From assembly GCA_026712715.1 (NCBI GenBank), contig JAPOPW010000030.1, forward strand, positions 62,001 through 126,000: a stretch of 64,000 bases of DNA, written 5' to 3'. The position numbers were made by a program, and so were the translations under genes. Each line of letters opens with the position of its first letter. Positions within the stretch are counted from its first letter, which is position 1. The notes below the pieces were generated by a model. That model saw only the letters and a program-made list of their open reading frames with translations. It did not search any database and was not told the origin of the DNA. Positions 876 through 28,100 of this stretch are shown here, piece after piece. Origin of the DNA: Immundisolibacterales bacterium (GTDB taxonomy: Bacteria > Pseudomonadota > Gammaproteobacteria > HK1).

Positions 876-2459
876 TTGAGACCGAAGCTGCGCGAGACCT
901 GGGAGGTGCGCAAGCCGCTCGTGCGGTCCGCCGGCGGTGTCGTCTCCTCCCAGCACTACCTGGCGTCCGAGGCGGGCGCGCGGGTGCTCGCCGAGGGCGG
1001 CAACGCGGTGGATGCGGCGGTCACCGCCGGGCTCGCGCTCGGCACCGTGGAGCCCTGGATGAGCGGGCTCGGCGGCTGCGGGCAGATGATCGTGCGCCTT
1101 GCCCGGGAGCCCCGCGCGTGGTCGGTCGACTTCGGGCTGGTCGCGTCGCGGAGCCTCGACCCCGCCGACTATCCCCTGGAGGAAGGCCGCGGGTCCGATC
1201 TTTTCCACTGGCCGGCCGTCGAGGGGGATCGGAACGTGATGGGGCCGCTCTCGATCGCGGTGCCCACCTACGCGGCCGGCGTGGCGGCGGCTCTCGAACG
1301 ATTCGGAACCCGTTCCTGGGCGGAGTGTCTCGCCCCCGCAATCGAGCTCGCGGAGCGCGGACTCGACGCCGACTGGTACGCCACGCTCAAGATCGCGTCC
1401 ACCGCCGCGCACCTCGCCCGTGACGAGGAGGCCCGCCGGGTCTTCCTCCCGGGCGGCTTCCCGCCCTGCTCGGAGTGGAGCGGACCGCCTCCCCGGCTCC
1501 GGCTCGGGAAGCTCGCGCAGACCCTGCGCCGGCTTGGCGAGGCCGGTCCCCGGGATTTCTACGAAGGGGCGATCGCCCGTTCGCTGGTCGCCGACGCGAG
1601 GAGGCTCGGGGCGCGTATCGAACCCGAGGATCTCGCCGGGGTGGAGGTCCGCATCCGCGAGTCGCTGGCCGTCGGCTACGCCGGCGCCACGGTCCGCGCG
1701 GCGCCCGGGCTCACCGGAGGACCGAGCCTGGAGCGCACGCTCGGCCTCCTCTCCGAGCGACGCGCCGCGGCGGCGCACGCCTGGCCCGGCTCCGAGTCCG
1801 ACCTTGCCGTCGCGTACGCGGATGCTCTTTCCACCGCCTACGCGGAGCGCCTCGCCGCGGCGGGCCACGATGCGGAGGCCGCGATGCCCGCCTGCACCAC
1901 GCACCTCAGCGTGGTCGACCGCGACGGCAACCTCGTCGCGCTCACCCAGACCCTGCTCTCGCTGTTCGGGTCCCGGGTGATGTTCCCCGGGACCGGGGTG
2001 CTCATGAACAACGGCGTGATGTGGTTCGATCCGCGCCCCGGCCGGCCCAACTCGATCGCGGCGGGTCGCCGGCCGATGTCCAACATGTGCCCGGTGGTGG
2101 TGGAGCGGTCCGGCGGAGAACGCTTCGCCCTCGGCGCGTCCGGAGGGCGGCGGATCATGCCCGCGGTGATGCAGCTCGTCTCGTTTCTCACGGACTTGGG
2201 CCTCGATCTGGAGGCGGCGTTCCATGCCCCGCGCATCGACGCGAGCGGCGCCGACTTCGTGACCGTCGACCCTCGGTTTGCGCCGGAGGTCGCCGCCGCC
2301 CTCGGCGAACGGCACGTGGTGGAGGTCTGGCCGAACGCCGTGTATCCGGCGATGTATGCTTGCCCGAACGCGGCCGGGGCGTTGCCGGACGGAGATCGGG
2401 TGGGAGCGGCCTACGTCATGTCGCCATGGGCGCTCGCGGCCCCGGTGGAGCCGAAGTGA
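876..2459 (+). CDS. gamma-glutamyltransferase (GGT family)
   Basis: The 527-residue protein belongs to the Ntn-hydrolase gamma-glutamyltranspeptidase family, which hydrolyses or transfers gamma-glutamyl groups of glutathione and related peptides after self-cleavage. The cleavage nucleophile should be Thr341 in ACTTHLSVVD. The N-terminal GGNAVDAAVTAGLALGTVEP and the MNNGVMWFDP and RRPMSNMCP blocks also fit. I chose the TTG at 876 because it follows a good GGAGG ribosome-binding site at 864-868, three bases after the preceding stop. No signal peptide is visible, unlike the periplasmic E. coli enzyme, so it may act in the cytoplasm. It lies near the D-glutamate genes dgcN-dgcA. Confidence 0.88.
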   Translation: MRPKLRETWEVRKPLVRSAGGVVSSQHYLASEAGARVLAEGGNAVDAAVTAGLALGTVEPWMSGLGGCGQMIVRLAREPRAWSVDFGLVASRSLDPADYPLEEGRGSDLFHWPAVEGDRNVMGPLSIAVPTYAAGVAAALERFGTRSWAECLAPAIELAERGLDADWYATLKIASTAAHLARDEEARRVFLPGGFPPCSEWSGPPPRLRLGKLAQTLRRLGEAGPRDFYEGAIARSLVADARRLGARIEPEDLAGVEVRIRESLAVGYAGATVRAAPGLTGGPSLERTLGLLSERRAAAAHAWPGSESDLAVAYADALSTAYAERLAAAGHDAEAAMPACTTHLSVVDRDGNLVALTQTLLSLFGSRVMFPGTGVLMNNGVMWFDPRPGRPNSIAAGRRPMSNMCPVVVERSGGERFALGASGGRRIMPAVMQLVSFLTDLGLDLEAAFHAPRIDASGADFVTVDPRFAPEVAAALGERHVVEVWPNAVYPAMYACPNAAGALPDGDRVGAAYVMSPWALAAPVEPK

Positions 2460-2607
2460 CAATTCGACGGACCGCGTGCCGGGCGGTTCACGACGAGCGG
2501 GCGAGGGCCGTACGGCTCCGGGCTCGCACGACCGCGGCGCGGAACGCGCCGGGGAGCTTCGGGCCGCGGCCCGGAGCGCCCGCAGGCCCGAACAGGAGAA
2601 GCGCGGA

Positions 2608-3201
2608 ATGAACGAGGTGCTCGAGGTCCCGGAGTCGCGGCTGGCGGAGGGCGACGGTGCGGTGGCCGACCTGATTCGCTCGCGGCGGACCATCCACGAT
2701 TTCCGCGAGGAGTCCGCCCCGGTGGAGCTCGCCCGCACGGCTCTCGATCTTGCCCGGTGGGCACCGAACCACCACCTCACCGAGCCCTGGCGCTTCTATC
2801 TGCTCGGTCCGGAGACGGCGGCCGCGATCGCGCACCTCAACGCCGAGATCGTCACCGCGAAGAACGGAACCGAGGCGGGGGCGGCGAAGCTCGACCGGTG
2901 GAGCCGGATCCCGGGCTGGGTCGTGGTCACCTGCGAGAACACCGACGATCCGCTGCGCGCGCGCGAGGACTACGCGGCGTGCGCTTGCGCGATCCACAAC
3001 TTCTCGCTCTTCCTGTGGAGCCGGGGGGTCGGCGTCAAGTGGACGACGGGAGCGGTGACCCGCGACCCGCGCTTCTACGATCTCGTGTGGATCGACCCGG
3101 ATGCGGAGACGGTCGTGGGGCTCGTCTGGTACGGCTACCCGGCGGAGGTCCCGACCCCCGCCCGCCGCCCCCTCGAGGAGGTCTCCGTCATCCTCCCCTG
3201 A
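2608..3201 (+). CDS. nitroreductase family FMN oxidoreductase
   Basis: A 197-residue protein of the nitroreductase fold (FMN-dependent, usually a homodimer using NAD(P)H). The N-terminal RSRRTIHDF block and the APNHHLTEPWRF block are the flavin-binding signatures of the YdjA-like branch, and the C-terminal VVGLVWYGYP segment is also typical. The ATG at 2608 is preceded by AGGAGAA at 2593-2599. The 148 bases before it hold no gene. The substrate is not predictable. It could instead be one of the flavin-processing members of this fold. Confidence 0.85.
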   Translation: MNEVLEVPESRLAEGDGAVADLIRSRRTIHDFREESAPVELARTALDLARWAPNHHLTEPWRFYLLGPETAAAIAHLNAEIVTAKNGTEAGAAKLDRWSRIPGWVVVTCENTDDPLRAREDYAACACAIHNFSLFLWSRGVGVKWTTGAVTRDPRFYDLVWIDPDAETVVGLVWYGYPAEVPTPARRPLEEVSVILP

Positions 3202-6156: not shown

Positions 6157-6965
6157 ACCCGGCATCTCCCTGGCCGGACGACGGACCGGACCGCGCTCCG
6201 CTGGTCGCCTTCGCCGGGACCCTGGCCGATGCGGCCCGGGCCGTAGCCCGCCGCCATTTCCGGGCGTCGGTCGAGGTCGAGTACAAGGCCGACGGATCAC
6301 CGGTCACCCGCGCCGATCGGGAGGTGGAGGAGACCCTGAGCGGCCTGATTCACGAGCGCTTCGCCGAGCATGCGGTCACCGGCGAGGAGCTCGGCCGCAC
6401 CGGCCCGTCCGACGCCCGCTGGCGCTGGGTGCTGGACCCCATCGACGGGACCAAGAACTTCGTGACCGGCCGTCCCCTGTTCGGATCGCTGATCGCGTTT
6501 CTCGACGGCGACCGACCCATTCTCGGCGTGATCGAGTCCCCCGCCCTCGGGGAGCGGTACGTCGGCGCGGCGGGCGACGTGACCCGCTTCGACGGGCGCC
6601 CCTGCCGCACGAGCGGGTGTACGCGGCTCGGTGACGCGCGGATGAGCGCCACCACTCCGGACCTCTTCGATTCCGACGAGCTGGTCGCGTTCGACGACGT
6701 GAGCTTCGCCGCCCGGATCCGGACCTTCGGGGGCGACTGCTACCAGTATGCGCAGCTCGCCGCCGGCCACCTCGACCTGGTGGTGGAGGCGGAGCTGGCT
6801 CCCTACGATCTGCTCGCTCTCGCACCCGTGGTCACGGGCGCGGGCGGCGTAATCACCGACTGGCAGGGGGAGGCGCTGACCGCCGCCTCCGGTGGCCGGA
6901 TTCTGGCCGCGGCGACCCCGGAGCTCCACGCGGAGGTGCTCGTCAGGCTGCAGGACGTCGTTTGA
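6153..6965 (+). CDS. inositol-monophosphatase-family phosphatase, HisN-like
   Basis: A 270-residue member of the Mg-dependent, Li-sensitive phosphatase family. The metal site is visible as GEELG, DPIDGTKNF and, near the C terminus, a GDCYQYAQLAAGHLDL segment followed by LAPYDLLALAPVV. The GDCY form of the last motif matches histidinol-phosphatases of the HisN type, which would place it at the penultimate step of histidine synthesis. A general inositol-phosphatase role cannot be excluded. It starts inside the thiD stop codon and its own stop overlaps the next start. A second, SuhB-like member of the family lies at 37798-38556. Confidence 0.78.
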   Translation: MNPASPWPDDGPDRAPLVAFAGTLADAARAVARRHFRASVEVEYKADGSPVTRADREVEETLSGLIHERFAEHAVTGEELGRTGPSDARWRWVLDPIDGTKNFVTGRPLFGSLIAFLDGDRPILGVIESPALGERYVGAAGDVTRFDGRPCRTSGCTRLGDARMSATTPDLFDSDELVAFDDVSFAARIRTFGGDCYQYAQLAAGHLDLVVEAELAPYDLLALAPVVTGAGGVITDWQGEALTAASGGRILAAATPELHAEVLVRLQDVV

Positions 6966-7423
6966 AGCGTCTGCTCGTCGTCTACCACACGCAGACGGGG
7001 CACACGGAGGCGATGGCCCGCGCGGTCGTGCGCGGCGCGCGGCATCCCGAGGTCGCCGGAGTCGAAGTTCGTCTCCGCCGTGCCATCGAGGCCGGCCTCG
7101 GCGACCTCCTCGAGGCGGACGCGGTGGCGATCGGCACGCCCGAGAACTTCGGCCAGCTCTCCGGCGGCATGAAGGATTTTTTCGACCGCACCTACTATCC
7201 CGCCCAGGGGAAGCTCGAAGGGCTCGCGTACGCGGCGTTCATCAGCGCGGGAAACGACGGACGGGGGGCGCTCGAGGGGCTTCGTCGAATCGTTCGCGGA
7301 TACCCGCTGCGAGAGGTGCGCGAGCCGATCATTGCCCGCGGGGGGATCGATGCCGGGGTCCTGGAACGATGCGAGGAGTTGGGCCTCGCGCTTGCCGCCG
7401 GCCTCGAAGCGGGCATCTACTAG
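6962..7423 (+). CDS. flavodoxin-like FMN-binding protein
   Basis: A 153-residue flavodoxin-fold protein. The phosphate-binding loop is HTQTGHTEAMA at residues 9-19. The second flavin loop is GTPENFGQLSGGMKDFFDR, a pattern of the NAD(P)H-dependent oxidoreductase branch. The start is a TTG at 6962 overlapping the stop of the previous gene, and no other start fits the conserved N-terminal strand LLVVYHT. It is the last gene of the thiD-hisN-like-flavodoxin operon. It presumably carries electrons; the partner is not visible here. Confidence 0.78.
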   Translation: MKRLLVVYHTQTGHTEAMARAVVRGARHPEVAGVEVRLRRAIEAGLGDLLEADAVAIGTPENFGQLSGGMKDFFDRTYYPAQGKLEGLAYAAFISAGNDGRGALEGLRRIVRGYPLREVREPIIARGGIDAGVLERCEELGLALAAGLEAGIY

Positions 7424-7453
7424 CCCGGAAATCTACCCAACTTTCGTCGCATA

Positions 7454-7480
7454 CTCGAATAACTCTGCGAGTTATTCGAG
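7454..7480 (+). repeat. tandem hairpin 1 (12-bp perfect stem, 3-nt loop)
   Basis: The arm CTCGAATAACTC (7454-7465) pairs without a mismatch with GAGTTATTCGAG (7469-7480) around the loop TGC. It is noticeably more AT-rich than its surroundings. It has the same skeleton as hairpin 2, ten bases downstream. The four stem pairs that differ between the two are all compensated. No run of T follows, so a plain intrinsic terminator is not a good explanation. Confidence 0.9.
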
Positions 7481-7490
7481 ATGGCTGTTT

Positions 7491-7519
7491 ACCCGAAAAG
7501 TTCTCCGAACTTTTCGGGT
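7491..7519 (+). repeat. tandem hairpin 2 (13-bp perfect stem, 3-nt loop)
   Basis: The arm ACCCGAAAAGTTC (7491-7503) pairs perfectly with GAACTTTTCGGGT (7507-7519) around the loop TCC. Aligned with hairpin 1 over 27 bases, the stem differs at pairs 2/26, 7/21, 9/19 and 10/18, and in each case both partners have changed so that pairing is kept. Confidence 0.9.
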
Positions 7520-7523
7520 TTGG

Positions 7524-7680
7524 GCGTCGAGACGGCGCTGTGACAGGCCGCACGGACCGAGAGACGCTGAAGGCGTAGTCGACACTAGCGCTACGCGCTG
7601 TCGAAGCGGCTTGAGGGAGTACGGCCAGTCACAGCGCATGGATCGGCGTCCGCAGCAGGAAGTTGGTGAGATTTGCGGGC
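7524..7680 (+). repeat. dispersed repeat family 1, copy 1
   Basis: About 150 bases resembling 26941-27090 (inverted) and, in its last 80 bases, 63155-63250 (inverted). It has imperfect inverted arms at 7535-7549 and 7623-7637 (14 of 15 pairs). These enclose a conserved GAGGGAGTACGGC core and are followed by a conserved tail: GATCGGCGTCCGCAGCAGG, then GGTGAGATTTGCGGG. This copy is intergenic. Confidence 0.78.
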
Positions 7681-7872
7681 TAGCGGCGAATCGCGGCCGG
7701 TTCCGGCCTCGTGTCCTGCAGGTGCGGGACCGGTGCCCGGACTCGGCGGGCCGGCATCACCGGGACCGGTGACGTTCGGGTGCGGCGGGTGCCGGGCGAG
7801 GGCTGCCGAACCGCGCCCGAGCCCGGCGTGCCCGCCTCGACGCCGCCGCACGACGCGCGGGGAAGCGCACGC

Positions 7873-26924: not shown

Positions 26925-28100
26925 ATGCGGACACGGGGGTGGTTTGCCCACATATTCCACCGGTTTCCTGCTTCGGCCGCCGATGCACGGGCAGCGACGC
27001 GCCGTACTCCCTCGAGTCGCTTCGACGCCGAGTCGATCGCGCCTTCGACGACTTGCGGCCCGCGCGGCCCGTCACTGCCGCGCCTCGGCGTCTTCGCGAC
27101 GACGATTGCCGGGGTATGCGCGCTTGCCGGTACGCTGTGGGTGATTGCGCCCGCGGCGTGGTCCGCCGACGGGCCGCTGGACGAAGTGCCCGCGGTACGG
27201 TCTTTCCTGCGCGAGGTCGAGTCCCGGCACGGACTGGACCGTGCCTGGCTGCAGGGGCTCTTTCGGGAGGCTCGCCGGCAGCAGTCGATTCTGGACGCGT
27301 TCAGCCGGCCGGCCGAGGCGAAGCCGTGGCATGCCTACCGCAAGATCTTCGTGACCCCGGACCGCATTCGTCGCGGAGTGGAATTCGCCCGCGAGCACCG
27401 GGCGGTGCTGGAACGGGTGACGGCGCGGTTCGGGGTGCCGGCCGAGACCGTGGCCGCGATCATCGGGGTCGAGACCTTCTACGGGCGGTACACCGGCCGC
27501 TACCGCGTCATCGATGCCCTGTCGACACTCGCGTTCTTCGCGCCCCGTCGGGGCTCGTTCTTCCGCCGCGAGCTCGAGGAGTTCCTGCTGATGCTCAACG
27601 AGGAGGATCGGGCGAGCGCCGACCTCAAGGGCTCCTACGCCGGGGCGATCGGAGTCCCGCAATTCATCCCGAGCAGCTATCGGGAGTACGCGGTCGACTT
27701 CGATGGAGACGGTCGTCGAGACCTCGTGGGAAGCGTGGACGACGCGATGGGGAGCGTCGGTTCCTACCTCCATCGTCACGGGTGGCGTGAAGGGGAGCCG
27801 GTCGCGTTTCGCCTGGCCGCGACGGACCCGGGACGCGCGGACCCGCTCGCCGGGGGGCTTCGGCCGGAGCGGGTCTGGGGGGACCTCGAGGAGGTCGGCC
27901 TCAGCGTTGCCGAGGCGGACCCGAAGCCGCTTCCGGACACCCCGGTCACTCTGGTGCGTCTCGACGGCGCGCGAGGGACGGAGTACTGGGTCGGCCTTCC
28001 CAACTTCTACGTGATCACGCGGTACAACCACAGCGCGCTGTATGCGATGGCCGTCCATCAGCTCGCGGTCGAGATCCGGCGGGGCGGCGAATCGGGGTGA
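26925..28100 (+). CDS. mltB: lytic murein transglycosylase B with a repeat-encoded N-terminal extension
   Basis: A 391-residue enzyme that cleaves the glycan backbone with formation of anhydromuramic ends. It carries ETVAAIIGVETFYGRYTGRY, whose IIGVETFYG holds the catalytic Glu, as well as GSYAGAIGVPQFIPSSY and the DFDGDGRRDL calcium-site segment. The signal-like helix (LGVFATTIAGVCALAGTLW) begins only at about residue 60. The preceding Arg-rich residues are encoded by family 1 repeat copy 2 read in antisense. A strong GAGGAGG site (26912-26918) fixes the ATG at 26925, and no usable start lies between the repeat and the signal helix. Confidence 0.9.
   Translation: MRTRGWFAHIFHRFPASAADARAATRRTPSSRFDAESIAPSTTCGPRGPSLPRLGVFATTIAGVCALAGTLWVIAPAAWSADGPLDEVPAVRSFLREVESRHGLDRAWLQGLFREARRQQSILDAFSRPAEAKPWHAYRKIFVTPDRIRRGVEFAREHRAVLERVTARFGVPAETVAAIIGVETFYGRYTGRYRVIDALSTLAFFAPRRGSFFRRELEEFLLMLNEEDRASADLKGSYAGAIGVPQFIPSSYREYAVDFDGDGRRDLVGSVDDAMGSVGSYLHRHGWREGEPVAFRLAATDPGRADPLAGGLRPERVWGDLEEVGLSVAEADPKPLPDTPVTLVRLDGARGTEYWVGLPNFYVITRYNHSALYAMAVHQLAVEIRRGGESG
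26941..27090 (-). repeat. dispersed repeat family 1, copy 2 (inside the mltB frame)
   Basis: Read on the minus strand this is the counterpart of 7524-7680: arms at 27066-27079 and 26990-27003 (12 of 14 pairs), then GAGGGAGTACGGC, CATCGGCGGCCGAAGCAGG, and GGTGGAATATGTGGGCAAACC at the end. It lies between the ribosome-binding site/start codon and the signal sequence of mltB and keeps that frame open. Confidence 0.78.

Follow-up and report, generated by a model that had tools for sequence, protein, structure and literature searches.

Bacterial MITEs are usually regarded as deletion relics without a conserved interior. One of them, ERIC, is palindromic, differs from the element described here in sequence and in its ends, and has, to our knowledge, no known link to IS1380. 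ERIC is a MITE of many copies that occurs in two gammaproteobacterial families (PMC10969869), and the present element is likewise spread over several families. Bacterial MITEs in general (PMC10969869) and the TIMEs of Pseudomonas (PMC4133298) are, like our element, short, free of a transposase gene and bounded by inverted termini, and the likeness extends to flanking direct repeats, an intergenic position and stable predicted stem-loop transcripts (PMC10969869, PMC4133298). TIMEs differ, however, in having Tn3-type ends and in usually being present as a single copy (PMC4133298), and the MITE review mentions neither IS1380 nor covariation (PMC10969869). The QMITEs of Coxiella burnetii are also gammaproteobacterial and have long palindromic transcripts, some of which are transcribed as sRNAs; unlike the present element, QMITE1 is a sequence for which BLASTn recovered no orthologue elsewhere, and QMITE2 has direct repeats of 7-9 bp (PMC5896051). 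The intergenic structured repeats of Borrelia resemble our element in lying beside gene ends and in showing many compensatory changes, but they are plasmid stem-loops of one genus, lack a long interior and are said to be unlike MITEs (PMC2674063).

The insertion sequences (ISs) of the IS1380 type (PF13701 / NF033539) are also close to the present element, as a CTAG-type site and the terminal TAGCCCGCATTTCTCACC are common to the element and to two such sequences, L184 and L185. The element differs from these ISs in lacking a transposase gene, and a word-7 blastn comparison of its interior with L184 and L185 gave nothing beyond the ends except a few matches of 11-18 nt at chance level. A partial literature search found no paper on an IS1380-type MITE of this sequence. 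The element probably represents a new MITE family of a kind that is already known, and the unusual part is the depth to which the fold of its interior is conserved.

The locus lies in a window of 64,000 nucleotides (the whole stretch of DNA that was analysed) from an Immundisolibacterales bacterium, in which an earlier note had described two perfect 27-base hairpins. These were found at 7454-7480 (CTCGAATAACTC-TGC-GAGTTATTCGAG) and 7492-7518 (CCCGAAAAGTTC-TCC-GAACTTTTCGGG), each with 12 pairs and a three-base loop, and a base-by-base comparison returned the compensated pairs that had been claimed (2/26, 7/21, 9/19 and 10/18), together with one loop base and nothing else. The gap between them, given as ten bases, is 10 or 11 by count, H2 having one extra pair (7491/7519). 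None of 100 dinucleotide-preserving shuffles of the window contained the joint twin-hairpin pattern. H2 is a diverged tandem copy of H1. The hairpins very probably belong to a transposable element that is non-autonomous (a MITE) and has ends of the IS1380 type, for which inverted termini, CTAG-like 4-bp end sites, dispersed copies and a covarying branched fold were observed. The features in the window are as follows.

6962-7423, + strand: flavodoxin-like gene directly upstream of the element (PF00258, E 2.5e-11)
7420-7683, + strand: whole MITE-like element, 264 bp, recognised from repeats in its own genome and relatives and bounded by copy alignment
7420-7443, + strand: left terminal inverted repeat, CTAGCCCGGAAATCTACCCAACTT; the flavodoxin stop codon TAG (7421-7423) is part of its CTAG
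7454-7480, + strand: hairpin H1, 12-bp stem and 3-nt loop, optional module
7491-7519, + strand: hairpin H2, 13-bp stem and 3-nt loop, optional module
7522-7652, + strand: structured core, conserved among copies, scoring 127 bits with covariance model R1
7522-7530, + strand: helix P1, 5' arm (partner 7643-7651)
7536-7553, + strand: helix P2, 5' arm (partner 7619-7636)
7619-7636, + strand: helix P2, 3' arm (partner 7536-7553)
7643-7651, + strand: helix P1, 3' arm (partner 7522-7530)
7660-7683, + strand: right terminal inverted repeat, AAGTTGGTGAGATTTGCGGGCTAG
26943-27126, - strand: second, decayed element copy of 184 bp without the hairpin module (88.6 bits)

The unit runs from the CTAG at 7420 to the CTAG at 7683 (CTAGCCCGGAAATCTACCCAACTTTCGTCGC ... 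GCAGCAGGAAGTTGGTGAGATTTGCGGGCTAG), its terminal inverted repeats being 24 bp long, as in most copies, with CTAG at either end. Its interior is a non-coding repeat without a transposase gene, and the whole element constitutes one long imperfect palindrome. The second copy corresponds to a covariance-model match on the minus strand (G000:C6:88974-89093), with boundaries taken from locus L026. Well-bounded copies span 172-322 bp. In relatives, the plain unit is most often 184 bp long; to this, the first window copy adds a 69-bp hairpin module and a hairpin in the core that is extended by 11 bp. L046 (G000:C4:64899), an element of 115 bp, shares these ends but has nearly no core.

A search of the genome with H1 returned five places at which similarity extends well past the hairpins, and a search with a 303-bp copy returned many full and partial copies. 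The end sequence alone occurs at 18 places with at most 3 mismatches, and its reversed control at 0. A covariance model built from 25 cores found 18 copies in the genome itself (G000) and 2-37 in four relatives of its family: 36 in G001 and 13 in G002, both of the same genus, and 37 in G004 and 2 in G013, both of the same family. The copy number in the genome itself is a lower bound, because several contigs of its assembly end within the element. The element is multicopy and dispersed. The covariance model matches 21 of 369 genomes of the class Gammaproteobacteria (the present one included), in 19 genera. In a phylum sample of 398 genomes, an uncounted part of which lies outside the class, only the present genome matched; plasmids and phages, considered as carriers, gave no DNA-level match to the element, and viral contigs no exact match to one element pattern.

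Two complete ISs with matching ends were found by scanning IS1380 transposases in other element-bearing genomes of the class. L185 (1746 bp) encodes a 486-aa transposase (PF13701, E 1.5e-156; IS1380 equivalog, E 1.9e-121), and L184 (1756 bp) likewise encodes one of 486 aa (PF13701, E 3.5e-158). Both lie in other families of the class, and their ends, CTAGCCCGCATTTCTCACC, are the same as those of the MITE over 19-20 bp; the MITE ends of L153 and L127 are identical to those of L185 over 21-22 bp. Because complete IS1380 ISs share these 19-20-bp ends, an IS1380-type MITE is the best reading of the element. The genome itself yielded no intact IS1380 element whose ends match, only transposase fragments, two of them at contig ends and a third a decayed copy followed by a similar end. 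Since the genome holds such fragments only, it is from the ends that we infer mobilisation in trans by an IS1380 enzyme, which would cut at the TAGCCCG.../...CGGGCTA ends and insert the element at CTAG. The end (TTAGCCCGCATCCGTCACCGATTT) of the decayed IS1380 remnant L113 (G000:C13:87780-88300) resembles the MITE end, and this remnant is possibly a relic of a local autonomous partner. In another genome, a 524-aa transposase gene has a 43-bp copy of one MITE end on each side, the two being inverted (L193, G174, 1240-3012), an arrangement that resembles the nesting of another IS within a palindrome derived from a MITE.

The sites of insertion are consistent with this assignment. Among 59 copies with both ends recognisable, CTAG stands at both ends in 19, and identical direct 4-mers other than CTAG (CCAG, CTGG, CCGG, TTAG or CAAG) flank five, while inverted pairs occur in none. 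Target-site duplication was therefore observed, although most copies are ambiguous, since CTAG is self-complementary and a duplication cannot be separated in them from a longer inverted repeat. The complete IS1380 elements in G002 have duplicated CTAG or CTAA sites. Neither G001 nor G002 has the element at the orthologous site: the flavodoxin gene of G001 has TGA as its stop codon (...ATCTACTGA) and is followed by the next gene, and that of G002 closes with one CTAG (...ATCTACTAG). This comparison, in which the flanks are only 78-83% identical and the genomes are not near-identical strains, agrees with an insertion at the flavodoxin stop codon, into its CTAG, that duplicated four bases. Where the target is a stop codon, insertion at CTAG would regenerate the TAG stop. 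A preference for stop codons was considered and rejected, as an open frame of at least 100 codons is closed by the CTAG end in 21 of 39 cases, just weakly above the 41% found for all CTAG sites at the same loci; insertion at stops is mostly explained by the scarcity of CTAG outside them.

The earlier note had also suggested a processing or stability element at the end of the thiD-hisN-flavodoxin transcript. The element does start within the stop codon of the last gene and lies in sense orientation; however, this operon ends without it in G001 and G002, and copies adjoin unrelated genes in both orientations. Genes predicted by codon usage around 74 copies place 73 of them between genes; of those in co-directional gaps, 19 are sense and 20 antisense, and the numbers for convergent and divergent gaps are 13 and 14. 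This random orientation argues against a cis role in a 3'-UTR or at transcript ends. No T-tract was detected near the hairpins, as had been claimed, and a search for terminator-like or sigma-70-like sites near them found none. An intrinsic terminator was rejected, there being no stem followed by a T-tract. A role in processing, stability or termination specific to this transcript is hence very unlikely. In G002, a response-regulator-like gene seems to start within the right end of one copy (GCAGGAGATTGGTGAAACATGAG; L058, G002:C1:1418052), and this end may supply the ribosome-binding site of that gene.

Covariation in the core goes well beyond the controls. The sense strand of the window element folds at -152.7 kcal/mol (z = -12.8). 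For 25 near-copy cores, RNAalifold gave 39 pairs, 16 of them with double-sided change, and 91 double-sided cells were counted against 31.5 in shuffled and at most 17 in slid alignments. In 31 more distant matches (one from the family and the others from outside it, two being antisense readings of the same copies), double-sided change affects 35 of the 39 pairs; the 246 double-sided cells, against 79.6 in shuffled alignments (reached in 0 of 500 shuffles), and the score of 0.628, against 0.223 shuffled and at most 0.101 slid, lean to the model to which this alignment was fitted, yet they lie very far from both controls. Under this model, the core (~120 nt) is a long branched fold kept by paired base changes. 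Its apical hairpin, CGTAG/CTACG, has the variants CATAG/CTATG, TGTAG/CTACA and CGTAC/GTACG. A candidate H-type pseudoknot between UCGA in the apical loop and UCGA just 3' of the hairpin gave 76 paired cells against 66.4 shuffled, a value reached in 52 of 2000 shuffles; single cases covary (L133, L137), but the set as a whole does not stand clearly above the shuffles. A correlation of fold decay with end decay (rho = -0.50 over all copies) was dropped, because it is confounded by genome and is not significant within any one of them.

The fold also shows a strand. The sense strand folds better than the antisense strand both in the alignment (-72 against -47) and in the window copy (-152.7 against -130.1), and departures from pairing in the core are G.U rather than A.C in ratios of 72:17 in near and 137:25 in far copies, compared with 103:50 and 159:70 after shuffling (2.1-2.3 to 1). 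The terminal repeats are nearly even (G.U 21, A.C 13). The G.U excess in the core and the better sense fold suggest that the molecule which folds is strand-specific, RNA being the simplest candidate. The core may accordingly be viewed as a functional RNA, acting in trans or needed for transposition, that rides on the MITE, with selection seeing the sense-strand fold. Class-wide covariation in nearly every pair and the insertion of hairpins where the fold tolerates them favor this reading; nevertheless, a promoter was searched for and not found, there is no Rfam match, orientation to genes is random, and the covariance-model alignment itself leans to sense-strand pairs. Judged by the gathering cut-offs of its families, Rfam 15 gave no match in the window and, for L006, L013, L048 and L053, two weak matches only (E up to 2), both outside the element. 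On balance, a functional RNA is a possible but doubtful reading, and the more specific proposal of a class-wide, strand-specific structured RNA of ~120 nt, which a non-autonomous transposon would encode and would need in order to spread or be retained, is a conjecture to which we give still less credence.

Strand-asymmetric folding would also suit a substrate for single-strand recombination of the integron-like or IS200/IS605-like type. Such a substrate is highly improbable, given the long terminal inverted repeats, the duplications of 4 bp and the occurrence of identical ends on an element with a DDE transposase.

Compensation might alternatively arise from DNA events, namely template switching or gene conversion between the arms of a quasi-palindrome, with no selection on the fold. 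The element is, after all, palindromic throughout, and departures from pairing in H1 and H2 are symmetric (G.U 9, A.C 10). In the core, however, departures are strand-asymmetric, and specific unpaired bases as well as a G.U pair in P1 (in 23 of 25 near copies) have been kept rather than repaired. As a general explanation, this appears tentative at best, about on a par with a functional RNA; for H1 and H2 alone, which show no strand because their G.U and A.C departures are about equal, arm-to-arm repair at the DNA level may apply.

Returning to the MITE, in which H1 and H2 are contained, these hairpins would constitute an optional tandem-hairpin module, added where the terminal stem meets the core, in a subfamily amplified in the genus. 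In the predicted fold of the window copy, the terminal repeats close a four-way junction, and the hairpins provide two of its arms. This optional module is frequent in the present genome: 11 of 13 copies with a recognised left end carry an insert at this place, two of them (L010, L016) as a single hairpin. Few copies in G001 have the insert (L089, L048), and among copies whose left end could be recognised in G002 and G004, none has it. The view that the compensation is no accident is borne out, as hairpin copies in this and one same-genus genome also vary with compensation, 18 hairpins giving 27 cells of double-sided change against 9.2 shuffled, and the compensatory signal is much stronger in the rest of the element. 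Pair 2/26 is kept as T-A in H1 and C-G in H2 in nearly all copies, so the duplication of the hairpin predates the spread of its subfamily; pairs 9/19 and 10/18 changed again inside that subfamily. The matched differences between H1 and H2 could reflect the same constraint as in the core or arm-to-arm copying of palindromes. The idea of copied palindromic units in the earlier note pointed in the right direction, but the unit is the whole transposon-like element and not the hairpin pair.

Other inserts occur elsewhere. Two G001 copies (L080, L090) have a block of ~108 bp in the core, itself with strong hairpins (GGGCAATCCATGGACGGATTGCCC), and a related block stands at the same place in a G002 copy (L064). 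Other optional short-loop hairpin modules lie near the base of P2 in L013, L057 and L006 (ATGAGGAAACATC/GATGTTTCCTCAT, ACGGAAAAATC/GATTTTTCCGT and GCGCGAAGACC/GGTCTTCGCGC).

Overall, one branched fold is kept by this MITE family in 19 genera of a single class, almost all of its pairs showing compensatory change, and whole hairpin arms are gained and lost at places compatible with the fold. The fold may be kept because source copies need a strand-specific RNA, or folded DNA, to spread or to be tolerated. CTAG often comes from stop codons in GC-rich genomes, and insertion there lets the element abut a gene that remains unbroken. With this family, it becomes testable which features a transposon without genes requires in addition to its ends. 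Finally, if the functional-RNA reading is true, this would be a gene-less mobile element whose "product" is a folded RNA.
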